NCBI RefSeq assembly: GCF_011250645.1
Contig: NZ_JAANNO010000013.1
Span: 53,056 to 90,781 of the forward strand
Direction: 5' to 3'
From: Motilibacter aurantiacus
Lineage (GTDB): Bacteria; Actinomycetota; Actinomycetes; Motilibacterales; Motilibacteraceae
Length of the DNA: 37,726 nucleotides
In this document: positions 10,910-28,866 of the stretch, piece by piece
Numbering within the stretch: position 1 is the first letter of the stretch
How the letters are laid out: each line of letters begins with the position of its first letter
The notes under the pieces: generated by a model
The model's input: only the letters and a program-made list of their open reading frames with translations
Database searches by the model: none
What the model was told of the DNA's origin: nothing
Made by a program: the position numbers and the translations under genes

Positions 10910-11347
10910 ATGAAAGGGCAGGGCGAGACGCTGGAGGGCAGCAGGCCGGCCCGCTCGCGCGCCGCCTCAGCCAAGGATCGGATGCACCTGTTTCCGGGCC
11001 GCTCGCACAAGCTGCAGCCCCGGTTCAGCGATGAGGAGATGGCGGCGGTCAAGCAGGCGGCGAAGGCGTCGGGGCTCACTCCGACGGGCTACACGGCGGC
11101 CGTGACGGTGGCCGCCGCGACGAACACCGTGCCCCCGACGGCGTCCCTTCCGCGGCAAGCGCTGGCCGAGCTGATGGAGGCCCGGGCCCAGGTCCGCATG
11201 TTCGCCAGCAACGTCAACCAGGCCGCCAAGGCGCTCAACTCAGGCGCGGACGAGCCCGAGTGGCTGGCCCGGGCGGTCGAGCTGACCAACGCCGCCGTGC
11301 GCAGGCTGGACGCCGCGACGACGCAGATCGTGTCCAGGCTGCCGTGA
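10910..11347 (+). CDS. MobC-like relaxosome accessory protein
   Basis: 145 residues from ATG 10910 with GGAGAG upstream. The core begins at about residue 35: LQPRFSDEEMAAVKQAAKAS, then GLTPTGYTAAVTVAAA. This is the strand-helix-helix pattern of ribbon-helix-helix-type relaxosome proteins. A second part, ALAELMEARAQVRMFASNVNQAAKALN, matches the conserved region of bacterial MobC proteins. These proteins bind oriT and help the relaxase melt and nick it. The oriT-like repeat lies just upstream, and the next genes are a small membrane protein and the relaxase, each overlapping by GTGA. Start choice is good; the N-terminal 30 residues look disordered. Confidence 0.85.
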   Translation: MKGQGETLEGSRPARSRAASAKDRMHLFPGRSHKLQPRFSDEEMAAVKQAAKASGLTPTGYTAAVTVAAATNTVPPTASLPRQALAELMEARAQVRMFASNVNQAAKALNSGADEPEWLARAVELTNAAVRRLDAATTQIVSRLP

Positions 11348-11538
11348 GAACGGTCCTGCGCGAGGGCGTTTCGATCGCCGCGGTGGCGGTGCTGTTCGCG
11401 GCCATCTGGACCGTGCTCAGCGTGCTGTTCACCGACGCGACGTGGCGGGACGAGGCGCCCTTCGGGCTGGCTCTGGGTCTCGCCGTCGCCGTGGCCGAGG
11501 CGGTCCCGCGGTGGCGCCGGCGGCGGAGCCGACCGTGA
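11344..11538 (+). CDS. Small two-helix membrane protein
   Basis: 64 residues from GTG 11344, which overlaps the MobC-like stop as GTGA. Two hydrophobic segments are visible, VSIAAVAVLFAAIWTVLSVLF and FGLALGLAVAVAEAVP, ending in an arginine-rich tail (RWRRRRSRP). Its stop overlaps the relaxase start (GTGA), so the three genes are one translationally coupled unit. Likely a membrane anchor or relaxosome-to-membrane adaptor; this is inferred from position only. Confidence 0.75.
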   Translation: MRTVLREGVSIAAVAVLFAAIWTVLSVLFTDATWRDEAPFGLALGLAVAVAEAVPRWRRRRSRP

Positions 11539-13178
11539 TCACGAAGCGGATTCTCGGCGGGCGAGTGGCCGGGCTGGTGCACTACCTGTACTCCGAGTCG
11601 CCCGCCCAGCAGGCCGAGCAGGGAGGCCGCTCGCGTCATGAAGACCCGCGCTTGGTCGGCGGCTGGGACGCTGTCGAGCACCTGGAGCCGGGGCGCACGG
11701 CGCGCGGAGTGCGGGACTTCCGCGACCTGATCGCGGCGCTGGAGGCCCCGTGCAAGGCGGCGAGCGTTGGGCCGGAGGCCAAGCCGGTCTACCACCTGGT
11801 GCTGCGCAACCACGCCGATGACCGAGTCCTCACGGACGCCGAGTGGGGCGAGATCGCGGCCGACATGATGGACCGCACGGGCATCGCGCCGGCCGGAGAC
11901 CCACTCGGCGCGCGCTGGATAGCGGTGCGTCACGCCGACGATCACGTGCACGTCGTGGCCACGCTGGTGCGCCAGGACGGCAAGCGGGTTCGCCCGCAGA
12001 ACGACTTCGCCCGATTGCGCGAGGGCGCCCACGCGGCCGAGTCAAGGTACGAGCTGTCGGTCAAGACGGCGCCTGCCGACCGCACCTCCGAGCCGCCGCC
12101 GACGCGCGCTGAGACCGAGCAGGCCGCGCGGAACGGCCGCAAGGAGGTCCCGCGAGACACGCTGCGCCGCGCCGTCCGCACCGCAGCTGCCCAGTCCGAG
12201 AGCCTGGAAGAGTTCGTGGCGAAGCTAGGAACGCAAGGCGTACGGGTGCGTCTGCGCGAGTCCGAGCGCAACCCCGGCGAGGTCACCGGGTACTCGGTCG
12301 CGCTCGAGGACCAGGTCGACAAGGACGGCAAGCCCGTGTACTTCGGAGGAGGGCGGCTCGCGTCCGACCTCACCCTGCCGAAGCTCCGGGCCCGCTGGAA
12401 TGCGCCTCAGCTGGACGAGTCGACCCCCGGCGACGAGGCCGTCGCTGCGTCGCGCGGGCAGGCCGAGCCGGGTGACGCGAAGACCCCGGGACCGCAGTAC
12501 GGGGCGACCGGCCGGCGGCTGCACGGGCCGTACCGGCCGTCGCCGGAGGAGCGACGCGTGGTGCTGATGAGCGCGGCCGCCGCTGCGAAGCAGGGCGCGG
12601 AGCACATCAATCGGGCCGTCGCTGGAGGAGACCTGGCGGGCGCGGCAGACGCCGCATGGGCGGCGTCGGACTTCCTGACGTCGGCCGCGCGAGTGCTCGA
12701 GGCGCAGCGGCCGGGGCCGTTGACGGCCGCTGCGCGTCGGTTCGAGCGCGCCGCCCGCGAGACGTACGGCCGAGTGCCGGCGCCCTCAGGGGCGGGTCAC
12801 AGCCTGCGCGCCGGCGCCCGCGCACTGTCCGCTATCCGGCGCACGATGGATCAGGAGACGCGCCAGGTGTTGGCGCTGATGGCGCAGATGTACGCGCTCC
12901 TGTCGTCCGTGGAGCGGATGCGCGAGCAGCAGCAGCGGGCCGCTCAAGCGGCGGCGGCACGGGAGGCCGCGTACGAGCTGCGGCGCGAGTACCAGCGGAT
13001 CGTGGTCAGTGGCCCCGCGGGACCGAGCGCCGCCCGACAGGCCTGGGAGGACCGCCGGGCCGCCGATGTCGCAGCTGCACCGGCCCCGACCACGCCCACA
13101 ACACCCGCACCTAGCGCCGACCAATGGCCACCCCCCACGCCCTGGGAGCGTCACCGCGGCCCACAGCCAGGCCGCTAG
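11535..13178 (+). CDS. MOB-type conjugative relaxase
   Basis: 547 residues from GTG 11535 (GTGA overlap with the gene before). The N-terminal relaxase/mobilisation nuclease domain spans about residues 1-170. It begins VITKRILGGRVAGLVHYLY, with a candidate catalytic tyrosine in that first segment, then PVYHLVLRNHADDR. The metal-binding triad is HADDHVH (His133, His137, His139). It would nick one DNA strand at oriT, stay covalently attached and pilot DNA to the coupling protein. Middle and C-terminal regions are helical, including a Gln/Arg-rich coiled coil (RMREQQQRAAQAAAAREAAY), and the C-terminus is Pro-rich. The coupling to the MobC-like gene and the oriT-like repeat supports the role. The exact MOB class (MOBP-like) is inferred. 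Confidence 0.9.
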   Translation: MITKRILGGRVAGLVHYLYSESPAQQAEQGGRSRHEDPRLVGGWDAVEHLEPGRTARGVRDFRDLIAALEAPCKAASVGPEAKPVYHLVLRNHADDRVLTDAEWGEIAADMMDRTGIAPAGDPLGARWIAVRHADDHVHVVATLVRQDGKRVRPQNDFARLREGAHAAESRYELSVKTAPADRTSEPPPTRAETEQAARNGRKEVPRDTLRRAVRTAAAQSESLEEFVAKLGTQGVRVRLRESERNPGEVTGYSVALEDQVDKDGKPVYFGGGRLASDLTLPKLRARWNAPQLDESTPGDEAVAASRGQAEPGDAKTPGPQYGATGRRLHGPYRPSPEERRVVLMSAAAAAKQGAEHINRAVAGGDLAGAADAAWAASDFLTSAARVLEAQRPGPLTAAARRFERAARETYGRVPAPSGAGHSLRAGARALSAIRRTMDQETRQVLALMAQMYALLSSVERMREQQQRAAQAAAAREAAYELRREYQRIVVSGPAGPSAARQAWEDRRAADVAAAPAPTTPTTPAPSADQWPPPTPWERHRGPQPGR

Positions 13179-13239: not shown

Positions 13240-13395
13240 ATGACCGGATGATCGGAAGCGCCGACACCCGGATCTACAGAAGCTGCGCGGGGGCGACGAC
13301 CGGCGGTCTGGGCTGCTAGTCATGTCGTGGTGGTGCGGTGCAACCTGGCGGTGGCCGGGGTGCGTGTGGGAGGTGTGGGAGCGACGGGGGCGCCG

Positions 13396-13887
13396 GTGAC
13401 GGCCGAGGGGGGCTTCGACGAGTTCGTGGCGGCGGCGTCGCCGCGGCTCGTGCAGCACTTGTCCCTGGCGCTCGGTGATCCGTCGCGGGCGCAAGACTGT
13501 GCGCAGGAGGCGTTCGTTCGGGCGTGGCAGCGCTGGGCGCGGTTGACCGCGGAGGGATCCGACCCGTACGCGTGGGTCCGGACGGTGGCCTGGCGGCTCG
13601 CGGTCAGCGACTGGCGTAAGGCGGCCGCGCACCTGCGGGCACTGGTTCGCCACGGCCCCGCGCTCGACGTGGCCGAGCCCTTACCGGACGGGGTGGCGAT
13701 CCGGGACGCGCTCGCCAGGCTGCCCGTCGACCAACGCGTCGCGCTGGTCCTGCACTACTTCGCCGACCTGCCGGTGCGCGAAATCGCCGACGTCCTGCGG
13801 GTGCCCGAGGGGACGGTGAAAGCGCGGTTGTCGCGCGGGCGCAAGGCGCTGGCCGGGCTGTTGAGCGAACTGGAGGAGGCACGGTGA
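13396..13887 (+). CDS. SigE-family ECF-type sigma factor
   Basis: 163 residues. Region 2 is seen as FDEFVAAASPRLVQHLSLAL and AQDCAQEAFVRAWQRW, with a promoter-melting part WVRTVAWRLAVSDWRK. Region 4 is IRDALARLPVDQRVALVLHY, LPVREIADVLRVPEGTVKAR, a helix-turn-helix that reads the -35 element. GTG 13396 is chosen because it sits right before the conserved start and has GGGGG upstream; the frame is open to 13327. Its end overlaps the next gene (GTGA), which encodes a membrane protein with a large outer domain, so the pair resembles sigma factor and anti-sigma or sensor partner. Targets are unknown. Confidence 0.9.
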   Translation: MTAEGGFDEFVAAASPRLVQHLSLALGDPSRAQDCAQEAFVRAWQRWARLTAEGSDPYAWVRTVAWRLAVSDWRKAAAHLRALVRHGPALDVAEPLPDGVAIRDALARLPVDQRVALVLHYFADLPVREIADVLRVPEGTVKARLSRGRKALAGLLSELEEAR

Positions 13888-15200
13888 GCGAGCCCACCGA
13901 CGAGCAGTTGCGCGGCCTGGCCGAACGGTTGCACGGCGAGCCGTTGACCGGCCTCGGGCTCGAGGGCCCTGCGGTCCGAAAGGTGGCCCGCCGACGCCGA
14001 ACACGACGCGTCACGGCCGCCGCGGGCGCTGCTCTTGCCGCGCTGGCCGCCGTCGCCGTCGCTCCCACGCTCACTGGAGCGGATCGGGTGACACCCGGGC
14101 CGGCGGCCGTCGCCACTCCGGCAGCAAGTGCCGCCGGGTGTGCCGATCCCGAGGGCAGGCACGCGCGCTGGGCGCAGGTGCCCGAGCTCCCGCAAGCCCT
14201 CGCGCTGCAGACCGCAGACTTTCGTGACCCGTGGCGGGAGGACTCCGTCACGTCGGACGTGTCGGTCCGGTCGCCGGAGGGCCGCTCGCCTGAGCGGGCT
14301 ATCGGGGTCGGGTTCATGTCGGACGCCGACCCGACCTGGCAGGTGTTCTCGTCCGTGCTGCAGTACCGGGCTGGGCAGAGTACAGAGGCGTACCAGCGCA
14401 TCCTGGAAGAGGAGCTCTGCCTCCGCGACCGGCAGCGGACCACCGTCGTGTCCACGTCGACAACCGGTGGGGTCGAGGTTCAGGTCCTGCGCCGCGACAT
14501 CGCCAACGTGAGCGGCGCCCCCGACGTGGCGATCGTGGCCGTGATCCGCGCCGGGGACCGCATCGCGCGGGTCAGCGCCAGCACCATCGAGCCGGCCAGC
14601 GGCCCGCTCACCGGTGACGTGAACGCCTGGGGCCAACAGTTGGCCAACGCTGCCGCGGCTCGCCTCACCGCCCAGCAGCCCCGCGAGATCGGGCCGGCGC
14701 CCCGGGTCGTCGCGGCTCCACCGGACGGCTTCCTACAGGCCGGCGACATCGGCCCCGGATGGCGCGTGGGCGCTCAGAACGGCGACCGCCGTGCGGTGCC
14801 AGCAGGCGTGATGGGACGAGCGCCAAGCAGTGACTGCGACCGAACGCTCACGTTCACCGGCAGCGGCGGCACCGCGCAGACCTACCGGAAGAACGGTGCC
14901 ATCATCGAACGGCGCAGGAGCGCTCGGCTCGTCAACCTGCCGATCGCGGAACAGGTCGTGCGGTTCGACAAGGAGCAGGCCCGCGCCTACCTCACGGCCC
15001 TCACCACGACCTGGATACGCTGCAACGGAGGCACCGTCGAGGCCGTCAGCGGCGTGAGCGACGAGGCGTACGTGCTCGTCAAGGAAGGGGTCGCGACCGT
15101 CGTCGCTCGCTCGGGTGACCGGCTCGTCCAGTTGAACGCCGTCCCTGTCGGCGCCGACCCCGCGCGGCTACTCCAACTGGCCGCCGAGCGAGCGCTCTGA
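13884..15200 (+). CDS. Membrane-anchored sensor-like partner of the sigma factor
   Basis: 438 residues. Short cytoplasmic N-terminus (EPTDEQLRGLAERLHGEPL), a basic RRRRTRR stretch, one membrane helix at about residues 43-63 (VTAAAGAALAALAAVAVAP), then a large extracytoplasmic part. The outer part appears to be two related halves (about 90-235 and 255-437). Each contains a Cys pair and each ends in a helix of the type QLANAAAARL or LLQLAAERAL, resembling PknH-type sensor domains. The GTGA overlap with the sigma factor implies stoichiometric expression. Probable regulator of that sigma factor; no classical zinc anti-sigma motif is visible. Confidence 0.7.
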   Translation: MSEPTDEQLRGLAERLHGEPLTGLGLEGPAVRKVARRRRTRRVTAAAGAALAALAAVAVAPTLTGADRVTPGPAAVATPAASAAGCADPEGRHARWAQVPELPQALALQTADFRDPWREDSVTSDVSVRSPEGRSPERAIGVGFMSDADPTWQVFSSVLQYRAGQSTEAYQRILEEELCLRDRQRTTVVSTSTTGGVEVQVLRRDIANVSGAPDVAIVAVIRAGDRIARVSASTIEPASGPLTGDVNAWGQQLANAAAARLTAQQPREIGPAPRVVAAPPDGFLQAGDIGPGWRVGAQNGDRRAVPAGVMGRAPSSDCDRTLTFTGSGGTAQTYRKNGAIIERRRSARLVNLPIAEQVVRFDKEQARAYLTALTTTWIRCNGGTVEAVSGVSDEAYVLVKEGVATVVARSGDRLVQLNAVPVGADPARLLQLAAERAL

Positions 15201-15927: not shown

Positions 15928-17178
15928 CTATTGGAGGCGTCGTCCGGAGGCCGCGAGCTGTGCGGTCGCGGGCGCCGGAGCGGGAGTGGCCGGAGGTGCC
16001 GTGTCGAGGCTGGGAGCGCCGGAGAGGGGGGCGGGGTAGGCGGCTGCGGTCAGTGAGGCGGCGCTGGCACGGTTGGTCAGCGGCTGCGTGGACGGCTCAC
16101 CGCTATCGGCTCGCCCCCGGGCATCAGCCCCGCCGGCGTCTACGGCGAGGTACTCGCGCATGAGCAGGTCGTGGTCCAGCCCGTGCGCCGACGCGAGCTC
16201 GTTCATCTGCCAGCTGGCCACCCCCGGGGGAAGGTCAGCGAGGATTGGGGCGACGGCGCGAGCGGCCGCCACGCGCCCCTCGGGCCACTGAAGCCGGTCC
16301 CGGTAGCGGCTCATCGTGTCCTCGAGGACGGCCGCGACGAGGGGCCGGGTCGCGGCCGCGCGCAGCGATGCCGCGAGCGTCGAGGGGCCGTATTGACCCA
16401 GCAGGTCGGACGGGTCGTGGCCCGGGACGCCGGGCGCCCGGTCGGGGTGCAGGCCCGCTGCGCGCAGCAGGGGGTACGCCGCGATGGCGGCCGCGCGGCC
16501 GGGCTCGTCCTCGTCGGGAGCGACGATCAGGCCCCGGCCGGTGGCCGAGGCCGCGAGCAGGTTGGCCTGGTGCTGGGTCAGTGCGGTGCCGCCGGGGGCC
16601 ACCCCGTAGAAGCTGCCGGGGTCGGTCGAGGTGACGGCGAGGACGTCCCACCGGCCCTCGACGAGGACCGGGGTGGCCCCTGCTGCGCGGCCGTCGAGCT
16701 CGGGCATCGAGCCGAGCCCGAACGTGTGCTCGCCCTTGCGGTAGATCGGGGTGACCGGGGAGTCGAGGTAGCGCGGCGGCGCGCCCTCGGCGCCAGCCCG
16801 GGGGTCCAGGGACTGCCCGCTGAAGCCGACGACGCGCCCGAGCTCGCCGGCAGGGGCGGCGCTGGTGATGGGGAACATGACCCGGTCGCGGAAGCGGTCG
16901 ACGACCGTGTTGCGCGAGGTCTTCATGCCGAGCCCGGACTCCAGGAGCTGCTCGTTGGTGTAGCCGAGGCCGCGCAGGTGGTTGGTCAGCGCCGTCCAGG
17001 ACGGGGCCGCGTAGCCGACCTGGTACTTGCTGAAGGTCTCGGTCGTGACACCGCGGCGCTCCACCTCGGCGAAGAACCGAGCGACGTCGCGGTCCTTAGC
17101 GCCGCCCCATCCGCGGGTGTAGAAGCGTCGGGCCTGGTCGTGCATGGCGTAGAGCTGAGCGTGGTCGGTGGGGCTCAT
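15928..17178 (-). CDS. DnaG-like primase lacking the zinc-binding domain
   Basis: 416 residues. It corresponds to the catalytic core of DnaG: QARRFYTRGWGG, FSKYQVGYAAPSWTALTNHL, then the signature DRFRDRVMFPIT. The TOPRIM fold has the Glu in VLVEGRWDVLAV and the acidic pair in APDEDEPGRAAA. The usual N-terminal zinc finger (about 100 residues) is absent. The C-terminus is a Pro/Ala-rich tail with the motif AAAYPAPL 31 residues from the end and a basic GRRLQ ending. Last gene of the transfer operon, 34 bases after the 96-residue gene. Primases of conjugative plasmids can be sent to recipients to start complementary strand synthesis, so export is plausible. That role here is inferred. Confidence 0.87.
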   Translation of the reverse strand: MSPTDHAQLYAMHDQARRFYTRGWGGAKDRDVARFFAEVERRGVTTETFSKYQVGYAAPSWTALTNHLRGLGYTNEQLLESGLGMKTSRNTVVDRFRDRVMFPITSAAPAGELGRVVGFSGQSLDPRAGAEGAPPRYLDSPVTPIYRKGEHTFGLGSMPELDGRAAGATPVLVEGRWDVLAVTSTDPGSFYGVAPGGTALTQHQANLLAASATGRGLIVAPDEDEPGRAAAIAAYPLLRAAGLHPDRAPGVPGHDPSDLLGQYGPSTLAASLRAAATRPLVAAVLEDTMSRYRDRLQWPEGRVAAARAVAPILADLPPGVASWQMNELASAHGLDHDLLMREYLAVDAGGADARGRADSGEPSTQPLTNRASAASLTAAAYPAPLSGAPSLDTAPPATPAPAPATAQLAASGRRLQ

Positions 17179-17212
17179 GAACCGGGACCTACTTCCTGAG
17201 TCGGGGGTGCTT

Positions 17213-17503
17213 CTACGGGCGGGGCGAACGGGGTGGGGGAGGGCTGCCGCCCGCGCTGAGCGGGCCAGCGCCGTCGGCGGGTGCGGCCGCTGGGGCCGCG
17301 CTGCCCAGGGGCAGCGGGTAGGCGGCGGCAGCCAGACGCGGGGCCGGCGAGGGGTCGGCCTGTGCCTCGCGGAGCGCGGCCTGCACCGGCTCGAGGATGG
17401 GCAGCGGGGCCGTGTCGGCGTCGGCGCCGAGACGGCCAGGGGCCGCCATGTCGGCGGCCCCTGGGTCGTCGCAGTGCGGGTCGTCGTCGTGCGGGTCGGT
17501 CAC
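17213..17503 (-). CDS. Small disordered protein sharing the AAAYPxPL motif
   Basis: 96 residues from GTG 17503, overlapping the stop of the preceding large gene. Highly acidic N-terminus (DPHDDDPHCDDPG), one short helix (LPILEPVQAALREAQ), then RLAAAAYPLPLGS and a 30-residue Pro/Ala-rich tail ending RSPRP. No fold expected apart from the helix. It looks like a stand-alone version of the C-terminal region of its two neighbours. It may be an adaptor or a secreted substrate. Unknown family, but the gene is well supported by the overlap and the shared motif. Confidence 0.7.
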   Translation of the reverse strand: MTDPHDDDPHCDDPGAADMAAPGRLGADADTAPLPILEPVQAALREAQADPSPAPRLAAAAYPLPLGSAAPAAAPADGAGPLSAGGSPPPPRSPRP

Positions 17504-20061
17504 GGGCGGGCGGCTCGCCGGCGAGGCGCTGCAGGAGCCGGCGCGGCCGGGGTGTGCGCCCCAGGAGCGGCTGTCACGGCAGCGCCGGCGGCGTCGGCCG
17601 GAGGCGCCTGCCCGGCAATGGCAGCGGTCGTCCCGAGACTGGCGCGGGCTGCCTGCGCCCCGGTGGAGTTGACCGGCTGCGGGTACGCCGCAGCCGCGAT
17701 CTCGGCCGCGGTGGCCTGGCGGTCGCGGGCGCCCGTCAGGTCGAGGTCGGCGGCCGCCGCCGGAGGGCGCGCCGCCTGGACGCCCTCGGCGTGCTCGTCG
17801 ACGCGGGCGGTCGTCGGGTTGTCCGGGATGGCGGCGAGCGCCCGGGAGGTCGCGTCGCGGGCCTCGCCGTTGTGCTGCAGCGCCGCCGCGGTGTCACCGG
17901 CGGCGTCGGCCGCCGCCAGGGCGGACGTGTCCACGGCGCTGCCCGGGACGGGCGAGGGGAAGACAGGCGGCTCGGGGGCCGAGGCGCTGTCGAGCGGCGC
18001 GCCGGAGGCGGTGTGCTCGAGGTAGGGGCCGACGGTGGCGAGAGCGTCCTGCGGGGAGGTGCCGCGCTCCACGAGCCGGTCGTAGCGCTCGGCGACGTCG
18101 GGTCGGTCGCTCCGCATCCGGTCCACGGCATCAGCCACCGGGCCCGGCCCGGCCTGGGCCGCTTGCCCGGCAGGCAGGGCGGAGGCGGCGCCGGCCGTCA
18201 CCGCGGAGGGCTGACCAGTGTGCGGGCCGCGGACGACCTGCCCGGGGATCGTCACCCCGTTCGGGCTGCCGGCGGCACCGGCCTGGGAGGGGAAGTACGG
18301 GACGGCCCGGCGCATCGCGTCGGCCTTGCTCTGCCCGTCGGCGTTCGCGGCGTCGTAGCGGGCCATCGCCTCGGGGGCGAGGTCGCGCATCCGCTGCTCG
18401 GCCGCCTCAGCGACGCCAGAGAGCGCGTTGGCGATCGGGGCCGGCAGGTCGGTCTCGGTGTGCACCTTGGCCCACACGTTCGCCGCCTGCTCGAGCGTCG
18501 AGCCCGGCAGCCGATCCGCGAGCCCGCCGATCTCACCCAGCACGCCGTTCGCATGGGCCCATGCGGCATCGCGTTCCTGCGCGGCCTCGGCGACTCGGCG
18601 AAGGCCCTCCAGCACGTTGGGGCCCGTCTCGCCCCCGGCCGAGGCGCCGTCCCCTCCGGCGGCCCCCGGAACGCCCGGGCCCGCATCGGCGCTCCTGTCG
18701 GTTGCGGGTGGCGTGGTGGGGCGGGTGTCGGCGCGGTCGTGGATGCGCCGGGTGTCGATGAGGTTGCCCAGAACCTCGTGCATGGCCCGGGCCGGTGAGT
18801 GGGTGCCTTGGGCGCGCAGGACGTCGTACATGGCCATGTTGTCCGGGGTGATCTCGCGCAGCCGGGCCTCGGCGGCCGCCAGGTAGGGGGCGCGCTGGTC
18901 TGCGGGCAGCGTTGCGTGGGCCTCACGCCACATGCCGATGGCCTCGCCGGCGGTGGCGGTGTGGAGCACGGCGAGCCGGTCTTCCAACGCGGCGAGCGGG
19001 CTCGGCGTGGCGAGGACGGCTCGTGCCTGCTGGGTGTGGACGGTCTGGTGCGTGCCGTCGTCGTCGACGAGCCCGGCGGCGAACCCGATGCGGGCGATGG
19101 CGTAGCCGATCGGGTCGCTGTCCTTGCTGGCCACCATCGAGCGGCGCCAGCGGTCCATGGCCTGGCCGGGGTCGCCGCTCTCGGCGAGCGCCTTCCGGTA
19201 GAGGCCCATGACGTGCGGGTTGAGCTCGGTCAAGCGCTGCTCGGCCCGCTGCAGGTAGGGGCGGGCCACCGCTTCCGGCAGCGTGGTCCGAGCGTGGTCC
19301 CACACGCTGAGCGCGGTGGCGATGGTCGCGTCGGGCAGGCCCGCGGAACGGCTCCGTAGGGCCTGCAGCACTTGCGGGTCGACCGGACGCGGCGCGGGCA
19401 CCGCCTCGTCTGCAGCGCCGGCCGTCGGGCCGGTGACGGTGGCCTCGGCCTGATCGGGCATGACCTTCGTAGCGGCCTGGTCCACGAGGTGCGGGAAGCG
19501 TGCCGTCTGCCGGTCGGCGTCGGACAGCAGCACGACGTCCCCGGTGGTCTCGTCCGGCGCGAGCCCGGCCCGGGTCGGGGCCGGGTCACCGACGCGAGCG
19601 GGCGGGGCGTCGAAGTAGGGCGCCACGCGCATCATCGCCTCGATCGGTTCCGCGCCCTGGGCGCGCAGCCGGTCGTAGCGCTCCATGACGTCGGGGCGCA
19701 GCTCGCGCAGACGGTTCTCCGCCGCGCTGGCCGCGCGCTCGGCCTCGGGGTCCGGCCGCCACCCCTGCGCGGCGGCCCAGGCCCGGCCTGCGTCGAGCAC
19801 GGTCGTCTCGCCGTACGCCTGGGGGTCCAGCAGCGGCGCCCACTCGGCCTGAGCCGCGCCGCGCCGCGCCTCGAGCTCGGCGCGGGCCGCGTTGGCCTCG
19901 GCCTGGTCGCGCTCAGCCCTGGCCGCGGCCCGGGTGGCGGCGATCTGCGCGGCGGCTTCGGACGCCATCGTGGCGATGCTGACGAACTGCACGATCTTGG
20001 TGCCGGTGGCCGCGAGCGGCTCCTCCGTCGGCGGCTGCATCTCCAAGTGACCATCAGACAC
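17500..20061 (-). CDS. Large five-repeat protein of the transfer operon
   Basis: 853 residues from GTG 20061, with GGGAG a few bases upstream; the frame continues upstream without protein character. After a helical coiled-coil N-terminus (residues 30-75) come five copies of a roughly 35-residue module at about 115-150, 274-310, 398-436, 555-590 and 646-682. Its consensus is RLRxLxPxxM, then YDxL, a Gly, and AMxxxxPYF. In copies 1-4 a helix beginning with Trp (VWDHARTTLP, MWREAHATLP) precedes the module. The C-terminal 180 residues are Ala/Pro-rich, with AAAYPQPV 56 residues from the end and a basic RRRAARP ending. No enzyme motif. Perhaps a scaffold or a DNA- or protein-binding transferred protein. 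Confidence 0.8.
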   Translation of the reverse strand: MSDGHLEMQPPTEEPLAATGTKIVQFVSIATMASEAAAQIAATRAAARAERDQAEANAARAELEARRGAAQAEWAPLLDPQAYGETTVLDAGRAWAAAQGWRPDPEAERAASAAENRLRELRPDVMERYDRLRAQGAEPIEAMMRVAPYFDAPPARVGDPAPTRAGLAPDETTGDVVLLSDADRQTARFPHLVDQAATKVMPDQAEATVTGPTAGAADEAVPAPRPVDPQVLQALRSRSAGLPDATIATALSVWDHARTTLPEAVARPYLQRAEQRLTELNPHVMGLYRKALAESGDPGQAMDRWRRSMVASKDSDPIGYAIARIGFAAGLVDDDGTHQTVHTQQARAVLATPSPLAALEDRLAVLHTATAGEAIGMWREAHATLPADQRAPYLAAAEARLREITPDNMAMYDVLRAQGTHSPARAMHEVLGNLIDTRRIHDRADTRPTTPPATDRSADAGPGVPGAAGGDGASAGGETGPNVLEGLRRVAEAAQERDAAWAHANGVLGEIGGLADRLPGSTLEQAANVWAKVHTETDLPAPIANALSGVAEAAEQRMRDLAPEAMARYDAANADGQSKADAMRRAVPYFPSQAGAAGSPNGVTIPGQVVRGPHTGQPSAVTAGAASALPAGQAAQAGPGPVADAVDRMRSDRPDVAERYDRLVERGTSPQDALATVGPYLEHTASGAPLDSASAPEPPVFPSPVPGSAVDTSALAAADAAGDTAAALQHNGEARDATSRALAAIPDNPTTARVDEHAEGVQAARPPAAAADLDLTGARDRQATAAEIAAAAYPQPVNSTGAQAARASLGTTAAIAGQAPPADAAGAAVTAAPGAHTPAAPAPAAPRRRAARP

Positions 20062-20135: not shown

Positions 20136-20357
20136 TCAGAAGCCGCAGCGGTTGCGGCGGGCGAAGACCAGCCAGCACCCGGACAGCAGGGCGCAGACCG
20201 CCAGGACGACGAGGCAGAGGACGAGCAGCACGTCCGCGCTTGTCTCAGGGGTCGGGCCGGTCGTCAGCGGTACCGCCGGGGAGAGCGTCACGAAGGCGTA
20301 GCCGTCGCCAGGCGCGACCGCCGGCGACACGAGGTCGGCCGTCACGGGGTCGGCCAT
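20136..20357 (-). CDS. Small single-pass membrane protein
   Basis: 73 residues from ATG 20357, which shares its A with the TGA stop of the DUF4913 gene (TGATG). After an N-terminal soluble segment (PVTADLVSPAVAPGDGYAFV) there is one strong membrane helix (VLLVLCLVVLAVCALLSGCW), then a basic tail (FARRNRCGF). Likely N-terminus outside and C-terminus inside by the positive-inside rule. Possible part of the transfer channel; unknown family. Confidence 0.7.
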   Translation of the reverse strand: MADPVTADLVSPAVAPGDGYAFVTLSPAVPLTTGPTPETSADVLLVLCLVVLAVCALLSGCWLVFARRNRCGF

Positions 20358-20968
20358 CACGACGCGGGCCCGGTGGCCATCGGCGCCCAGTGCCCGGGCG
20401 GGGCCGGACGCGAGGGCAGCGGCGGGGGTGGGTTGTGGCCGGAGGCGCCGCACGCCGCGAACGGCCCCGACGCGCTGAGCAGGACCGGCAGGTGATGGTC
20501 GACCTGCCCGAGAAAGATCGGGCCGCCGTTCTCGGGCTGGCGCCGCGAGGTCTCGAACGTCCGCCACAGCCCCTCGAGCCGCAGCACGGCCTCGGGGTGG
20601 TCCCACCATCGGTCGCACCACAGCGCGTTGCCGCCGAGGGTGCGGGCGAAGGCGATGACGAAGAACTCGTTCACGAAGTCCTCGACGTCGCGGTAGTAGG
20701 TCTCCCACTCGTCGCCGGCCTCGACCGGCGGCTGCGCGGGCAGTGCCGGCCGCTCCATCGGAGCGGCGCCGGGCCCATGAAGCGCCTTGTTGACTAGCCC
20801 GTCGAGGTCGTCGACCTGGTTCTGGATGTGGAACAGCCAGGCAGCGGCCTCCCGCAGGTCCGCCAGCTCCGGCACCCTGTCGAAGGCCTCGCTCAACGAC
20901 GTGCCGGGCTCGTCGCGTGCGGCGCCCTCGTCCGGCGGCTCGGCGTCGGCCGTCGGCCCGGCGGTCAT
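20357..20968 (-). CDS. DUF4913-domain protein, operon copy
   Basis: 203 residues. The core (about 95-165) reads WETYYRDVEDFVNEFF, NALWCDRWWDHPEAVLRLEG, then LWRTFETSRRQ, followed by DHHLPVLLSASGPFAAC, the pattern of DUF4913. This domain is typically found in actinobacterial conjugative elements beside the coupling protein. The start ATG overlaps the stop of the coupling-protein gene (ATGA). Acidic N-terminus, Pro-rich C-terminus. Function unknown; its position suggests work with the coupling protein or the relaxosome. A second copy lies at 31274-31825. Confidence 0.85.
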   Translation of the reverse strand: MTAGPTADAEPPDEGAARDEPGTSLSEAFDRVPELADLREAAAWLFHIQNQVDDLDGLVNKALHGPGAAPMERPALPAQPPVEAGDEWETYYRDVEDFVNEFFVIAFARTLGGNALWCDRWWDHPEAVLRLEGLWRTFETSRRQPENGGPIFLGQVDHHLPVLLSASGPFAACGASGHNPPPPLPSRPAPPGHWAPMATGPAS

Positions 20969-22803
20969 GCCGCCGCCCCTTCGGCTGCGGCCTCGATGCG
21001 TGCGTCCGCGGTCGCGGTGGCCGTTCCGATCTCCTCGGCGCGCGGGCCTTCGAAGAAGGGGATCGACCGCACCAACGCGGGCCGGGCTCCGGTCGAGAAC
21101 ACCAAGGTGCGGAACTTGGGCAGCGCCCGGACGTCGGCGGCGGTGAGGATGCGGCGCGTCTGCACCGACCGCGAGCGGTTGGACTTGCCGTCGCCACGGC
21201 TCACCGAGACCGAGGTGTAGTCGTAGTCGCCGACGAGCTTGGACAGGTCATCGGCGAAGTTGGGGTCGTCGATGCCGGACCCCACGATCTTGAGCGTGGC
21301 TGCGCCCCAGAGCGCCTTCATGCCTGTCTCGCCCCAGACTCCGACGCCTTGGGCGTAGGACTGGAGCACCGTCACCGGGATGATCCCGCGGCTGCCTAGG
21401 TGGGAGTAGAGCTGCGGCAGGTCCCCGATGCGGCAGATGTTCGCGGCCTCGTCGAGCACGACCAGCATGGGGGCGTCGAGTCGCCCGCCGGGGCGGCGCT
21501 CGGCCGCCGCGACGGCCTCGCGCAGCACACGGTCGGTCAGAGCGGCCACGAGAGGGGCGGCGGAGCCGCCGCCGTCCTTGCTCAGCAGGTAGAGCGTCTG
21601 ACGCGACGCCGGGAACGCTTTGGCGTCGAACTCCTCGATGGAGGCGGCGTCCTGCCCGGTCGGCGGGGTGACCCACGCCGTGATCTCCGGGTTGCGCAGG
21701 CAGGCCAGCGCGGAGCGGGCGTTGAAGAAGACGCCGGACCGCGTCTCCTCGGCCATCGTTCGCGTGCCGTCCAGCGAGGAGGCGATGGCGTCCCAGCCGG
21801 CCTGACGCAGCAGCTGCGCGGGGAGGGGGCTGTTCTCCTGCGTGACCCACGTGTAGACGTCGGCCAGGGTGCCGCCGGAGACGGCGGCGGCCAGCAGCAG
21901 CGAGGCGACGAGCTCGGCGCCGGACTGCTTCCAGATGTCGTCCTTGTTGTCGGTGCCGGTGGCGTTGATGAAGTGTGCGGCGAGCCGCTCGGCCTCTTCG
22001 ACGGTGGTGATGGCGCGCAGCGGGTCCCACCACCAGGTCTGCGGGGCGCGCACGATCTGCTGCGGGTCGAAGGCCCACACCCGCTCGCTGGTGTCGCTCG
22101 CGCGCAGCGCGGCCGTCGCCGTGTACCCGTCGGGCTTGTTCGAGGTCTGTACGACGGCGCCGGGCGCCTCGAGCGTGAGCGGGATCGCGTAGGAGGAGGT
22201 CTTGCCGGAGCGGGGGGCCATGAACATGAGGACGACGTCCTCCCAGGACCCGCGGATCAGGCGCCCGGCCGGGGACAGCCGGCCGATGGTGAAGCCGACC
22301 TGCGCGCCCTGGAGGTCCTTGGGCTTGATCCCGGACAGCGAGGGGCGCAGCTTGCTGGCGCGCTTGGCCAGCTCGGGCTGGGTGAGGTGCTTGACGTCCT
22401 CGACGGTGGCCATGAGCCGGCCCGGGTCCGGTGCGCGGCGCGAGGCTCTGGTGAACGAGCGGAGAATCACGTACGCCGGTACGGCGGCGGCGAGCAGGAC
22501 GACGACGGCGACACCGACGAGCGTGCGCGGGTCGGTGCCGGCCCACACGCCCTGGCCCGTCACGTAGGTGTCGGGGTGGCGTGCGAAGTCGACCACGAGC
22601 AGCGGCGAGAACGGGCCGGGCCGCCAGGCCCAGCCGTGCCCGTCGGAGTGCGAGCCCCAGGCGCCGGTGAGGCCGCCAGCGACCCACAGGGACGCGGAAG
22701 CGCCGACGACGAGGGCGAAGGCGCCGAGCAGCAGGACGATGCCGCCCTCGCCGCCCCCGGCGCCGCGCGGGGAGATGGTCGGGGTGGGCCGAGCGGTCCC
22801 CAT
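20965..22803 (-). CDS. VirD4/TraD-type conjugative coupling ATPase
   Basis: 612 residues from ATG 22803 (TGATG overlap with the VirB4-like gene). Two N-terminal membrane helices (GGIVLLLGAFALVVGASASL and LVGVAVVVLLAAAVPAYVIL) are followed by the ATPase. Walker A is MAPRSGKTSS (about residue 205), Walker B is MLVVLDEAANICR, and further conserved stretches are LYLLSKDGGGSAAPLVAALT and YSHLGSRG. This hexameric ATPase connects the relaxosome to the transfer channel and pumps DNA. Conserved TraD/TcpA-like features are complete and no frameshift is visible. Compare the broken copy at 29454-31277. Confidence 0.93.
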   Translation of the reverse strand: MGTARPTPTISPRGAGGGEGGIVLLLGAFALVVGASASLWVAGGLTGAWGSHSDGHGWAWRPGPFSPLLVVDFARHPDTYVTGQGVWAGTDPRTLVGVAVVVLLAAAVPAYVILRSFTRASRRAPDPGRLMATVEDVKHLTQPELAKRASKLRPSLSGIKPKDLQGAQVGFTIGRLSPAGRLIRGSWEDVVLMFMAPRSGKTSSYAIPLTLEAPGAVVQTSNKPDGYTATAALRASDTSERVWAFDPQQIVRAPQTWWWDPLRAITTVEEAERLAAHFINATGTDNKDDIWKQSGAELVASLLLAAAVSGGTLADVYTWVTQENSPLPAQLLRQAGWDAIASSLDGTRTMAEETRSGVFFNARSALACLRNPEITAWVTPPTGQDAASIEEFDAKAFPASRQTLYLLSKDGGGSAAPLVAALTDRVLREAVAAAERRPGGRLDAPMLVVLDEAANICRIGDLPQLYSHLGSRGIIPVTVLQSYAQGVGVWGETGMKALWGAATLKIVGSGIDDPNFADDLSKLVGDYDYTSVSVSRGDGKSNRSRSVQTRRILTAADVRALPKFRTLVFSTGARPALVRSIPFFEGPRAEEIGTATATADARIEAAAEGAAA

Positions 22804-24602
22804 CAGGCCACCGCCCCAGCGCGCTCGGCGCCGGCATTGGTCAGGTCGAGCGTGGGAGCGAGCCCGCTGCCGGCGGCCTTGGTCAGGTCGGTCACCCAGC
22901 GCTTGTTGGTGTTGTGGACCGCGCTGCGCCGCTCGGCTCGGGTCAGCTGCAGCTGGACGGGGATGCCCGGCCGCTGCCCGACCTTGATGAGCAGCTTGCC
23001 GCGACCGGGCGGCTCGCTGCCCGGCCTGGCGTCCCTGTCCCCCTCCTCGGCGTCCTGAGCAGGGCCCTCGCCCTCGTCCCAGCCGCGCGGCGTGGACCAG
23101 GAGGTGACGGTGTCGACCTCTGCGTCGGTGAAGCCGACGACCTCCGCAAGCTCCTTGAGCTCGGCGGGGGGCAGCCCGGCCACGACGACGATCCCGGCGC
23201 GCTCGACCAGGCCCTTGGCCTTGGCGATGTCGGCCGGGTCCTGCATGGACTTCAGGTCCGCCATCGAGTGCGAGCAGTACGCCTGCCCCACTCCCTCCTG
23301 GCGGTTGAGCCGTGAGACCGAGTCGACCCGGTCGACCATCCCGGCGCCCGAGCGCAGCACCCGCCACAGTTCGTCCAGGACGACGAAGTAGCGCCGCTGC
23401 GGGGCGAGACCGGCGTCGGCGAGCTCGTTGGCCGCCTCGACGGCACCGAACCCCTCGTTCCAGCACGCCAGCAGCACCGCGGCCTGCAGCGCGGTGTCGT
23501 TCGCGGAGATGCCGGACACGTCGACGCATACGGCGGTGGAGTCCAGGCGGATGCGCTCGGTGGTGGGGCGGGCGAACACCGAGCCCAGCGGCCCCTCGAT
23601 GAGCGCCAGCAGCGACCTCTGCAGCGGCTCGACCGCGACCCGGTAGCGCTCGACGTCGCCGCGGTCCAGTGTGGGGAGCCGCACGACCGGCGGCCCCTCC
23701 TCGAGGACGGCGACGAGGTCCGAGAGCAGCGGCGCCTCGGACGTGCCCTCGTAGGCGGCGGCGTCGGCGCGGCGCTCGGCCAGCAGCCGCAGCGCGGCCG
23801 ATAGGACGGTCCGCTCGGTGTCGGTGGTGGAGGACTGGCGGGCGAGCAGGATCAGCGCGTCGACCATGTTGAGCCGGCGGCCGTGGGCCTCCTCGCGCAA
23901 GCGGTCGGCGCGCCGGTGCATCCCGGCCGCCTGGAGCAGGTCGGCCGCCTCGTCGAGCGCGCCGGCGTCGAGGACGTTGAGCGAGCCGAGGCCGCGGCCG
24001 AGCCGGACGACCTGCCCGCCGAGCTCGCGCACGAGGTCGGCGTAGTCGGGCTTGAGGTCGCCCAGCACGAGCGGTGTGACGCCCTGCGCCGCGAGGCCGA
24101 GGACCTGGCGGCGGATGAGCGTGGACTTGCCGAGGCCGGGCAGGCCGAGCACGAACATGGAGGGGTTGGAGATGAGCTTGGCGCGCTGGAACCAGTTGAT
24201 CGGGTCGCAGCACACCGTCGCCCCGGTCGAGAGCGACGGCCCGATCGGGACTCCGACCATCGGCGTGGACGCGCCGACGACGAACGGGTAGAGCCCGCAC
24301 GCCTGCACGGTCGTGCCGCGCCACTCGGGGGGAGCTTCCACGTAGGACGCGCGGCCCAGCCCGCGACCGGCGAACCCGCGCGCGGTCAGCCGCGCAGGCT
24401 TGGCCAGGCTGGCCGGGGCGGCCTTCGGGGTCTTGTTCACCTGCTTGGTGGCGTTGCGCAGCTGGCGCTTGCTCGTCGCCTTTGCAGTGGCGGTGATGCA
24501 GGTCGAATCGCGACGGGAGGCCCGCCGGTGGCGGCGCGCGCCGCTGATGCGGGACGACACCACAGCGCCGGCCTCTTCCAGCGATGTGAGCTTCTTCGAC
24601 AT
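22803..24602 (-). CDS. VirB4-like transfer ATPase
   Basis: 599 residues. The basic Lys/Arg-rich N-terminus (first 70 residues) is followed by the ATPase core. Walker A is FVLGLPGLGKSTLIRR (about residue 155) and Walker B is YFVVLDELWRVL (about 415), with downstream conserved GVGQAYCSHSMADLKSM. VirB4-type ATPases power pilus assembly and substrate transport. It lacks the long N-terminal VirB4 domain, which may be supplied by the SCO6880-type neighbour. ATG 24602 has AGGGGA upstream and follows the SCO6880-type stop closely. Sits at the inner membrane. Confidence 0.9.
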   Translation of the reverse strand: MSKKLTSLEEAGAVVSSRISGARRHRRASRRDSTCITATAKATSKRQLRNATKQVNKTPKAAPASLAKPARLTARGFAGRGLGRASYVEAPPEWRGTTVQACGLYPFVVGASTPMVGVPIGPSLSTGATVCCDPINWFQRAKLISNPSMFVLGLPGLGKSTLIRRQVLGLAAQGVTPLVLGDLKPDYADLVRELGGQVVRLGRGLGSLNVLDAGALDEAADLLQAAGMHRRADRLREEAHGRRLNMVDALILLARQSSTTDTERTVLSAALRLLAERRADAAAYEGTSEAPLLSDLVAVLEEGPPVVRLPTLDRGDVERYRVAVEPLQRSLLALIEGPLGSVFARPTTERIRLDSTAVCVDVSGISANDTALQAAVLLACWNEGFGAVEAANELADAGLAPQRRYFVVLDELWRVLRSGAGMVDRVDSVSRLNRQEGVGQAYCSHSMADLKSMQDPADIAKAKGLVERAGIVVVAGLPPAELKELAEVVGFTDAEVDTVTSWSTPRGWDEGEGPAQDAEEGDRDARPGSEPPGRGKLLIKVGQRPGIPVQLQLTRAERRSAVHNTNKRWVTDLTKAAGSGLAPTLDLTNAGAERAGAVA

Positions 24603-24627: not shown

Positions 24628-26325
24628 TTAGAGGCCGTTGCGGAAGACGTCGGGCATCGCGACGTGCTTGGCCAGCACGACGCCCACGCCGAGGGCAGCG
24701 GCGAACGCGCTGTCCTGGGAGCCGAAGCAGCGGCGCAGTTGCAGCCGGGAGGAGGCGCCGAGCTGGTCGACGATCTCCGCGGCCTGGCCGAGCCGCTTGG
24801 GGTCGGACACCGTGACGGTGACCATCACGGACTGGCGTACGAGCCCGGCGCCTGCGGCCTGCTCCTCGGCGGTCTGCCGGGTGGCGCGGATCGCCGCCGT
24901 CTCGCCGGCGGCGGCCTGCCCGCGGCGGGCCGTGGCGAGGGTGTTCGCCGTGCGGACGTCGGCGTCGGCGATGGCGGCCGCCTCATAGGCGGCGTAGGGG
25001 CGGTAGACCACCGTGACGCGCTTGCGGTCCACGCCGGGGTGCGGGGCGAGCAGCCGCTCGAGGACGGAGGACTGCACGGCGCCGATCGGCGGCCTGGTCG
25101 TGGCGTAGGTGACCGAGGTGCCGCTGTCGTGCCGGTACGCGCCCCACGAGGCGACGGCGGCCACCGGGCCGGCGCTGTCCCAGGTGATGCCGGTGTCCTC
25201 GCCGGCCGCGCGCGCCTCCTCGACGGCGATGGCCGCCGTCGGGTCGTAGGCGACCCGGACCATCTCCGCCAGCTCCTGCGGGCGCATGGCCCGCACCGTC
25301 CCGGCGCCGGTGGCGGCCAGGTGCTCCATGAGGCCGGGAAGGCGCTGGCCGATCTGGACGGCCATCTCAACAGTGGAGCGGACGTTCTGCGGCGGGTTGG
25401 CCGGCCTGGGCAGCGAGGACGGCATCAGGTCCTCGTCGAGACCCGCGTCCGTGGGGTCCTCGCCGCGCTCGTAGGCCGCGAGCTCGCGGGCGGCCAGAGC
25501 CTTCGTGGACTCGCGCGGCTTCCTGGACTTGGCCTTCTTGCCGCGCCCGGTCAGGCCCTCTTCCTCGACCGTCGCGGGCTTGCGCGCGCTGAAGGTGAGG
25601 GTCACCCAGCCGCGGACGGTGGCGGCGCCGGCCGGGAACGTAGAGGCTGCCTCCTCCATCATCTCCCGCGCGAGGCCGGGCGCTCCGGTGCGGACCGTGC
25701 GGCGGACCTCGGAGGCGAGCCGGGTGCCCGGGTCCGGGGCCGTCTCGATCGTCGTGGTCACGGCCTCCAGGCCCGGCTCGTGCGCGAGGTCGGACAGGAA
25801 GCGCCCGTACTCCGCGACCCAGGAGTCGACCGTGTCGGTGTCGACGAGCTGCCCGCCCTCGGGCGCGACGGAGAGCACGACCGCGTAGTGACGCGCCGCC
25901 GGGATGGACACCATCGCGAACCGCTCGCCGTACGCGGTCTGCGCCTCGAACACTTCGCTGCGCGCGAGCAGGCCCGGCAGCCGGGCCGAGCCGAACGCGA
26001 TCGGCGAGACCAGCGCGGACAGGTACCTGTTCTGGCCCTTGCGCTTACCTTGTGCCCACGCGACCCGTGTCGTGAGCGTCTGCCAGCCGTTGCGCCCAGC
26101 GCGGTTTCGGTACTTGATCGGCGCCAGCAGCGCGATGAACAACAGCAGCGTGGCGCCTGCGGCAATGAACCCGCGGCCGAGCTGGACGAGGACGGTCATC
26201 ACCAGGCCGACGAGGAGCAGGCCACTGCCCAGCGTCCCCAGCCCGAACACGCCGGGCGAGCGCGGGACGACGAAGTTGCCGTAGGTGCGCGGCCCCTCGT
26301 TCCCGTTGACGGTGGAAGCAGACAT
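24628..26325 (-). CDS. SCO6880-family transfer protein
   Basis: 565 residues from ATG 26325, with GAGGG about seven bases upstream. Two close membrane helices at about 30-80 (LGSGLLLVGLVMTVLVQLG and FIAAGATLLLFIALLAPI) are followed by a long soluble region with conserved-looking RAGRNGWQTL, FAMVSIPAARHYAVVL and the alpha/beta segment VDRKRVTVVYRPYAAYEAA. Family named from SCO6880; it recurs in actinobacterial type IV secretion clusters between VirB6- and VirB4-like genes, as here. It has no Walker motif and appears to correspond to the N-terminal domain of VirB4, split off; that equivalence is inference. Confidence 0.82.
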   Translation of the reverse strand: MSASTVNGNEGPRTYGNFVVPRSPGVFGLGTLGSGLLLVGLVMTVLVQLGRGFIAAGATLLLFIALLAPIKYRNRAGRNGWQTLTTRVAWAQGKRKGQNRYLSALVSPIAFGSARLPGLLARSEVFEAQTAYGERFAMVSIPAARHYAVVLSVAPEGGQLVDTDTVDSWVAEYGRFLSDLAHEPGLEAVTTTIETAPDPGTRLASEVRRTVRTGAPGLAREMMEEAASTFPAGAATVRGWVTLTFSARKPATVEEEGLTGRGKKAKSRKPRESTKALAARELAAYERGEDPTDAGLDEDLMPSSLPRPANPPQNVRSTVEMAVQIGQRLPGLMEHLAATGAGTVRAMRPQELAEMVRVAYDPTAAIAVEEARAAGEDTGITWDSAGPVAAVASWGAYRHDSGTSVTYATTRPPIGAVQSSVLERLLAPHPGVDRKRVTVVYRPYAAYEAAAIADADVRTANTLATARRGQAAAGETAAIRATRQTAEEQAAGAGLVRQSVMVTVTVSDPKRLGQAAEIVDQLGASSRLQLRRCFGSQDSAFAAALGVGVVLAKHVAMPDVFRNGL

Positions 26326-28369: not shown

Positions 28370-28768
28370 CTAGGACAAAGACGTCACGATCGGGCCCGCG
28401 GCGGCCAACACAACCAGCCCGGCGCAGACCTTGCCGAACGCGGCCATCTGCTCGCCCCCGTCGTCGCCGCGCTTGTGCGCGAGCATGAACTTGATCCCGA
28501 CGACGATGAGCCCGACGACCCCCGCGACGGTTCCGCCCCACCCCGCCCAGTTCAGAATCGTCTGGAAGTTGTCCGTCCCTGGCGGCCGGGTGTTGTTGAC
28601 GGAGATCGCTGAAGCCGGTCGAGCGAGCACCAGAGTGGCAAGGGCGAAGACGAGCGTGGCGCCCGTGCTGCCCAGCACAGGGGCTCTCCACGGGCGTCGG
28701 GGAGCGCACCACCTCAACTGGGCGCGGCGCCTCGTCGTTCGTGTGCGACCGAAGCTTTGTACTTCCAT
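28370..28768 (-). CDS. VirB2/TrbC-like pilin candidate
   Basis: 132 residues from ATG 28768 with AAGGGG upstream. A long basic N-terminus leads to a signal-like hydrophobic stretch (LVFALATLVLARPASA) with an AxA cleavage site, then a short mature protein with two membrane helices (GWGGTVAGVVGLIVVGIKFML, and CAGLVVLAAAGPIVTSL) around a short acidic loop. This is the architecture of VirB2/TrbC pilins. First gene of the transfer operon, followed 9 bases later by the VirB8-position gene. The long basic leader is unusual. Confidence 0.72.
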   Translation of the reverse strand: MEVQSFGRTRTTRRRAQLRWCAPRRPWRAPVLGSTGATLVFALATLVLARPASAISVNNTRPPGTDNFQTILNWAGWGGTVAGVVGLIVVGIKFMLAHKRGDDGGEQMAAFGKVCAGLVVLAAAGPIVTSLS

Positions 28769-28832
28769 GCGAGCGGCCCCTTCCGATTCGCGGGAGAGCT
28801 CTACAGGTCTCCCTGTCCATACAAGTTGACGA

Positions 28833-28861
28833 AGCATGGCTCCAGTTCTCGACGCTGTCAA
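28833..28861 (-). promoter_or_regulatory. Candidate promoter of the transfer operon
   Basis: On the minus strand, TTGACA (28861-28856) and CATGCT (28838-28833) are separated by 17 bases, giving a perfect -35 and a -10 with three of six consensus matches. It lies about 65 bases before the pilin start. Confidence 0.45.
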
Positions 28862-28866
28862 CTGCC

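Follow-up and report, generated by a model that had tools for sequence, protein, structure and literature searches.

A conserved [AST][YF]P tag in the C-terminal tails of three proteins encoded beside the coupling protein of a Motilibacter transfer locus: a candidate docking signal

The stretch of DNA analyzed here (the window, 37,726 nucleotides of contig NZ_JAANNO010000013.1 from the actinobacterium Motilibacter aurantiacus) carries a transfer locus with a type IV secretion system (T4SS) of the SCO6880 class, in which three consecutive genes encode a DnaG-type primase, a protein of 96 residues and a large repeat protein that share a short motif, here called the tag, near their C-termini. Comparison establishes that the tag exists, that it is conserved in five loci and rare elsewhere, and that the tagged genes lie next to those for the VirD4-type coupling protein and the DUF4913 protein. 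Judging from sequence comparison, the tag could serve to dock accessory proteins on the coupling complex, probably for export alongside the DNA; we give this reading an about even chance of being correct.

Three proteins of the transfer operon share a C-terminal motif

An earlier note on this DNA had described the motif AAAYPxP(L/V) in three proteins, and all three copies are indeed present on the minus strand, namely AAAYPAPL in the primase (16024-16047), AAAYPLPL in the 96-residue protein (17306-17329) and AAAYPQPV in the repeat protein (17671-17694), with 31, 30 and 56 residues, respectively, between the motif and the stop codon. The Leu/Ile-Ala lead-in that it described is recognizable as well, in the form of L or I followed by x-A before each motif (SLTAAAY, RLAAAAY and EIAAAAY). 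Its account of the tails holds for their length (30-56 residues) and for the abundance of arginine near the end, but not for a final arginine: the last residues are Gln, Pro and Pro (RRLQ, RSPRP and RRRAARP). Tag and tail together amount to 38-64 Ala/Pro-rich residues, and both the position of the tag near the C-terminus and the basic end of the tail agree with what is expected of T4SS signals. The tag-bearing tail may be disordered: in the AlphaFold model of the primase, the predicted local distance difference test score is about 26-32 over residues 351-416, within a model that is poor as a whole (mean 47, 4 sequences).

When the 80 C-terminal residues of each protein were shuffled with their composition preserved, the exact pattern AAAYP.P[LV] appeared with frequencies of 8e-5, 1.2e-4 and 6.5e-5; on the assumption of independence, these multiply to about 6e-13. 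The codons differ among the three copies and the DNA around the primase and 96-residue protein copies is 71% alike over 38 nucleotides, so the tags do not look like recent copies of one another, and recent duplication of a single tail was rejected. Across the complete 4.59 Mb genome of M. aurantiacus, the sequence AAYPxP followed by a codon with T in the middle position occurs five times, compared with three occurrences for the backwards control; three of the five are the window tags and the other two are located 123 and 152 residues from the stop codon. The raw count is thus unremarkable, and the case for the tag rests on position and conservation. The short form [AST][YF]P at 25-75 residues from the protein end was found in 3 of the 77 predicted genes of contig C13 (the primase, the repeat protein and an unrelated gene at contig position 13360) and in 3 of the 41 genes in 60 kb of contig C9 (a second primase and two unrelated genes). 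These counts come from a simple gene finder that missed the small tagged genes on both contigs.

The tag is conserved in five related loci

The loci compared are the window, a second element of the same genome (on contig C9) and one locus in each of three other genomes (G001, G002 and G003). Primase relatives were identified in all five family genomes examined, the match in G004 being more distant and of the chromosomal type. The transfer-type primases are 84-85% (G003), 47-48% (G001 and G002) and 41-43% (second element) identical to the window primase. The earlier note had named absence from orthologs as an outcome that would speak against the tag; on the contrary, [AST][YF]P is present in all 15 orthologous tails (three proteins in five loci), the surrounding tail sequences diverge, and in each of the 15 tails, taken from a point shortly ahead of the tag up to the C-terminus, the Y or F of the tag is the sole Y, F or W. 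The consensus is [LI]AAx[AS][YF]PxP[LVM]. The primases carry TAAAYPAPL, AATAYPAPL, AAAAFPAAA, AAAAFPTTA and ARTAFPTPL, the small proteins AAAAYPLPL, AAVAYPLPL, AAAAYPVPL (twice) and AAVSFPVPL, and the repeat proteins AAAAYPQPV, AAIAYPQPV, SALAYPEPM, AAVAFPEPM and AATSFPHAV. Five chromosomal-type DnaG-like matches from these genomes (L010 and L012-L015) have no tag.

The small protein is about 67-96 residues long in the five loci, with starts of the four orthologs (about 67-91 residues) placed by eye. To the eye, these proteins have little but the tag in common, so the gene amounts to a tag that stands by itself. The 15 tails include two that are preceded by a frame change, in the G002 primase (L018) and in the repeat protein of the second element (L019), both counted as they stand; the changes may represent sequencing error or decay. 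In the second element, a small protein encoded next to the tagged genes (at about 14600-15004 of L019) ends with SAELTAAAGRAGHS..., which resembles the first half of the tag but lacks the aromatic residue.

The transfer locus of the window

The operon is located on the minus strand and, in the order of transcription, encodes the SCO6880-family T4SS protein, a VirB4-like ATPase, the VirD4-type coupling protein, the DUF4913 protein, the repeat protein, the 96-residue protein and the primase. The SCO6880-family protein (24628-26325, 565 residues from a predicted start) matches NF042935 with 474 bits (cut-off 60). The VirB4-like ATPase (22803-24602, 599 residues) is a tentative assignment, from weak NCBIfam matches (38 and 33 bits, far under the cut-offs) and from its place in the operon. 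The VirD4/TraG-type protein (20965-22803, 612 residues from a predicted start) matches TraG-D_C (PF12696, 110 bits) and T4SS-DNA_transf (PF02534, 93.6 bits), scores that refer to the longer open reading frame (ORF). Directly upstream of the tagged genes is the gene for the DUF4913 protein (20357-20968; PF16259, 85.3 bits). The repeat protein (17500-20061) has 853 residues when counted from a GTG codon chosen by comparison with the orthologs, the longest ORF extending to 20178, and no homologs of it were found on plasmids at an E value of 1e-4. The gene for the 96-residue protein (17213-17503), which consists mostly of tag and tail, starts with a GTG that overlaps the stop codon of the repeat protein gene, so the two genes are probably coupled. 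Neither of these two proteins matches a Pfam or NCBIfam family. The plasmid-type primase (15928-17178, 416 residues) contains both the N-terminal part of the catalytic core (DNAG_N, PF08275, 87.9 bits) and a Toprim domain (Toprim_2, PF13155, 38.7 bits), in accord with its assignment to the DnaG type.

On the plus strand, the window encodes a NikA/MobC-like relaxosome accessory protein (10910-11347; PF21983, 28.8 bits, cut-off 27) and a MobA/VirD2-type relaxase without the tag (11442-13178; PF03432, 38.3 bits). With an SCO6880-family protein, a VirD4-type coupling protein and a relaxase, the element is conjugative or mobilizable and has a T4SS of the SCO6880 class. A second, partial transfer module (28741-31825, plus strand) consists of a C-terminal fragment of a VirB4-like protein, recognized by its likeness to the first copy, and a fusion protein (29549-31825) in which a copy of DUF4913 is joined to the end of VirD4. 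Between the relaxase and the primase (13327-15200, plus strand), a gene resembling those for extracytoplasmic function sigma factors is followed by one for a membrane-anchored regulator-like protein, both recognized by eye, and an IS110-family transposase is encoded at 5-1144 (plus strand).

Survey of other SCO6880-class systems

The strict pattern [LI][AST][AST].[AS][YF]P.[PA], sought in six frames of 3.8 Mb of DNA (overlapping loci included), recovered 12 of the 15 family tags, one plasmid protein of Micromonospora zamorensis and five further ORF matches, four in ORFs shorter than 90 residues and one (L101) located 238 residues from the stop codon. It matched none of the 626 predicted genes in 40 other SCO6880 stretches, a selection from 57 places, and none of the 333 control genes. 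In this strict form, therefore, the tag is not common in unrelated cytoplasmic proteins, the other outcome that would have counted against it. With the orthologs tagged and the strict form rare, the claim of the earlier note that the motif is a docking or translocation tag gains support from comparison as far as docking to the transfer machine is concerned; the 40 other stretches show no enrichment and the relaxases of three elements are untagged. A universal tag of all SCO6880 systems is ruled out by the same survey.

A more general rule, a Pro/Ala-rich basic tail, was matched by 36 of 545 genes in T4SS stretches and by 10 of 296 controls (Fisher p = 0.056) and was not used, because 25 of the 36 come from four loci of a single genus and several control matches look like false ORFs. 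Among these 25 proteins, one has [AST][YF]P in the range (L148). The four loci of this genus (L146, L148, L150 and L151, in G020, G095, G052 and G124) are SCO6880 loci with arrays of Pro/Ala/Thr-rich tails that have ends of the R-x-R type, the single match being STYP in the protein encoded at 8671-9180 of L148. In L129 (G124), two proteins encoded upstream of SCO6880 (20-343 and 603-1673) have in common a Thr/Pro-rich C-terminus of 30 residues ending in QTPPAPGRTR, and in the longer of them (603-1673) GTFP is additionally present, 69 residues before the end. Fusions of MobF relaxase and primase were considered as carriers and rejected, no tag being present in the ends read (Pimelobacter, Nocardiopsis, Nocardioides and other loci).

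Looser tags on other actinobacterial plasmids

Of the 25 transfer-module coding sequences counted on the M. zamorensis plasmid, 7 encode [AST][YF]P at a distance of 25-75 residues from the protein end, compared with 3 of the 92 outside the module (one-sided Fisher p = 7e-4); the background, taken from control genes, is 10 of 333. The seven proteins comprise two encoded near SCO6880, a neighbor of VirD4, two encoded beside the relaxase, an ArdC-like protein and a UvrD-helicase protein of 5177 residues; in addition, the toprim protein of this plasmid has the near variant QGFPRL. The match to the strict pattern is the protein encoded at 6614-7072 of L105, with the tag 47 residues from the end. 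This protein and a different one from the same transfer region (5133-6308) have near-duplicate tails of 46 residues, which look like copies of one tail module. For one of the seven (18926-19900), homologs are encoded in 53 other plasmid records among the matches listed, and the three whose ends were read (Kitasatospora, Streptomyces globisporus and Streptomyces QHH-9511) all stop before the tail, a sign that it may have been added as a module. The S. globisporus alignment continues past the stop codon, where no [YF]P is found, and the S. anulatus and S. zaomyceticus rows align as far as that of S. globisporus.

In Amycolatopsis AA4, a toprim protein encoded beside DUF4913 and VirD4 and its neighbor both contain R[TQ]VSAYGYPRSTR[DE]MLA near their ends, the SAYGYP variant being 43-44 residues from the end. 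Among seven plasmid-encoded FicT proteins, four (Miniimonas, Xylanimonas, Glutamicibacter and Cryobacterium) have tails with RAS[YF]P or SASYP; these tails are short and rich in Pro, Gly, Ser and Thr, with the tag about 35-43 residues before the end, and all four plasmids encode SCO6880 and DUF4913, with the FicT accompanied by VbhA-type antitoxins. None of four more distant FicT-like proteins from genomes has a tagged tail. A gene-finder scan of 14 plasmid loci for [AST][YF]P yielded, besides FicT, one Miniimonas protein of 138 residues (RAASFPSAP), and the remaining matches in these loci were either scattered and unlike tails or in doubtful short ORFs; such scans miss genes, since Glutamicibacter gave no match despite its tagged annotated FicT. 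A helicase-primase-like protein of 2502 residues from Micromonospora sp. NBC_00821 (L209, 6890-14398) ends with ATAFVPITRAVP..., which is tag-like without YP or FP. Thus, on other actinobacterial plasmids with SCO6880-class systems, looser tags of similar shape are found in a primase, FicT, one ArdC-like protein and one giant helicase protein, and these may be the same thing as the window tag.

Proposed role of the tag and alternative explanations

We propose that the tag is a short linear docking motif in a probably disordered C-terminal tail, which would recruit the primase, the repeat protein and the mini-protein, all made beside the coupling protein, to the entry point formed by VirD4 and DUF4913. 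The tag would bind the coupling machinery, with DUF4913 as the first candidate for the receptor or adaptor because its gene is located between VirD4 and the tagged genes and because it is fused to VirD4 in the second copy in the window. The most likely purpose would be to send the tagged proteins into the recipient alongside the DNA strand; at the receptor, the mini-protein might have the role of competitor, sensor or pilot. A broader and more tentative version, which we consider rather unlikely to hold, is that in some SCO6880-class systems a portable tag of the form small-small-[YF]-P within a disordered basic tail loads unrelated payloads (a primase, a FicT toxin, an antirestriction factor, a giant helicase) together with the DNA, with VirD4-DUF4913 as the receptor and, in some elements, with a tag mini-protein as a gate. 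A readable tag of this kind in actinobacteria would allow the protein cargo of uncharacterized plasmids to be listed from sequence and tested with a single reporter, and the mini-protein that is nearly all tag is a small handle for a receptor search.

Several observations weigh against the main proposal. The five loci are related, so the 15 tails are not 15 independent observations. A T4SS signal would be expected to be common to several substrates including the relaxase, and here it is present in three accessory proteins: the relaxase, a protein that has to be translocated, is untagged in the window, G003 and G001 elements, as it is in M. zamorensis. In the 40 other SCO6880 stretches, the pattern used for M. 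zamorensis is not enriched (16 of 626 genes compared with the control rate given above), a looser pattern combined with a disordered-tail filter matches 13 of 626 genes and 4 of 333 controls, and the pairwise likeness of C-termini in T4SS loci, as a whole, is not above that in control loci. Among the more distant primases from 15 loci, none of the 13 readable ends is tagged (two run off the contig piece), and in the stretches of G004 that were read, SCO6880 and a gene that to the eye is DUF4913-like have no tagged neighbors. FicT is untagged on three of the seven plasmids (Gulosibacter, Cellulosimicrobium and Kocuria, the last with SCO6880). ArdC is untagged in all six genome matches, which rules it out as a general tagged class, and also on the Saccharopolyspora and Miniimonas plasmids. 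The M. zamorensis comparison was not blind, as the tails were seen before the limits of the module were set, and it leaves out 8 of the 125 annotated coding sequences in the stretches, which were short or cut. Given the survey, the distant primases, G004 and the untagged ArdC, the tag is a feature of some elements rather than of the whole class.

The tag might instead serve docking on the donor side, gathering the primase, the repeat protein and the mini-protein on a relaxosome, partition or coupling hub without export. The conservation in five loci fits this explanation equally well, as do the location of the tagged genes next to DUF4913 and VirD4 and the absence of the tag from the relaxase itself, and a mini-protein of 67-96 residues that is nearly all tag would suit a regulator of assembly; however, the tags on other plasmids occur in kinds of protein (primase, FicT, ArdC) for which transfer has been shown in other systems, according to the available parts of the sources (PMC8406263, PMC5512222), and we consider confinement to the donor unlikely, if well worth keeping in mind. 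That the tails have no function at all, the Ala/Pro-rich ends of high-GC plasmid genes having recombined or drifted so that their likeness is inherited low complexity, could draw on the two M. zamorensis tails that are near-duplicates over about 46 residues and on loci that are rich in Pro/Ala/Arg tails almost without the tag. Such shuffling does not account for a single aromatic residue and a proline that persist in 15 of 15 tails amid otherwise diverging sequence, or for the differing codons and the modest DNA likeness noted above, and appears highly improbable.

About as little credence is due to a processing or turnover signal, whereby a protease would cut or recognize A-x-A-[YF]-P and thus trim or destroy the proteins: A-x-A with an exposed tail resembles some protease sites, but C-terminal degrons are unlike an internal tag followed by another 30-56 residues. 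A distinct question is whether the Micromonospora, FicT and Amycolatopsis tails with [AS][YF]P are unrelated to the LAAxAYPxPL tag of the window family. Outside the family, little is common beyond a small residue and [YF]P, PxP[LV] is mostly lost, and one M. zamorensis tail alone matches the strict pattern; conversely, the position (about 31-44 residues from the end), the type of tail and the T4SS class are similar. That the two sets of tags are unrelated is a real possibility, although we lean toward doubting it. Docking to the coupling complex with export as its probable purpose is the reading that we retain for the window tag.

Comparison with known systems

Among known conjugation substrates, the available parts of the sources list relaxases, the SogL primase, ParM and FicT (PMC8406263), and pSa ArdC and the RP4 TraC1 primase are likewise transferred (PMC5512222). 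VbhT, a FicT with a C-terminal secretion domain, travels with its plasmid; according to the authors of that work, the signals of most T4SS are very short and their prediction is notoriously difficult, and more toxins of toxin-antitoxin systems were expected to travel with conjugation (PMC5675462, available in part). No actinobacterial tag of the present kind was found in a literature search that mostly did not cover subscription journals, and the term "translocation signal" has 0 occurrences in a 2025 review of T4SS nomenclature.

The ColIb SogL and RP4 TraC1 primases are, like the window primase, encoded beside transfer genes; the available parts of the sources mention no comparable tag in them. 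BID is a folded domain, and no Pfam BID match was detected in the three tagged proteins at an E value of 0.01 (with the presence of the BID model in the Pfam copy unconfirmed). The FIC-BID proteins of Bartonella (VbhT and the Beps) resemble the FicT of actinobacterial plasmids in having a C-terminal extension, a location on a plasmid with a transfer system and a VbhA-type antitoxin (PMC5675462, in part), whereas the actinobacterial FicT has a short tail with RAS[YF]P or SASYP. The XVIPCD of the bacteria-killing T4SS effectors of Xanthomonas is, as far as the available text goes, also a modular C-terminal element for recruitment to VirD4 that is found across different effectors; at about 120 residues with several motifs, it differs from the window tag, which has about 10 conserved residues, or 38-64 with the tail. 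The basic signals of the Agrobacterium VirF/VirE2 type are likewise C-terminal, with a consensus arginine motif of their own, and are sufficient as a short tag (PMC10025392, in part). The window tag, as a putative signal, differs from them in its conserved aromatic-proline core 30-56 residues before the end. C-terminal T4SS signals are already known as a kind, and the window tag would be a variant of them.

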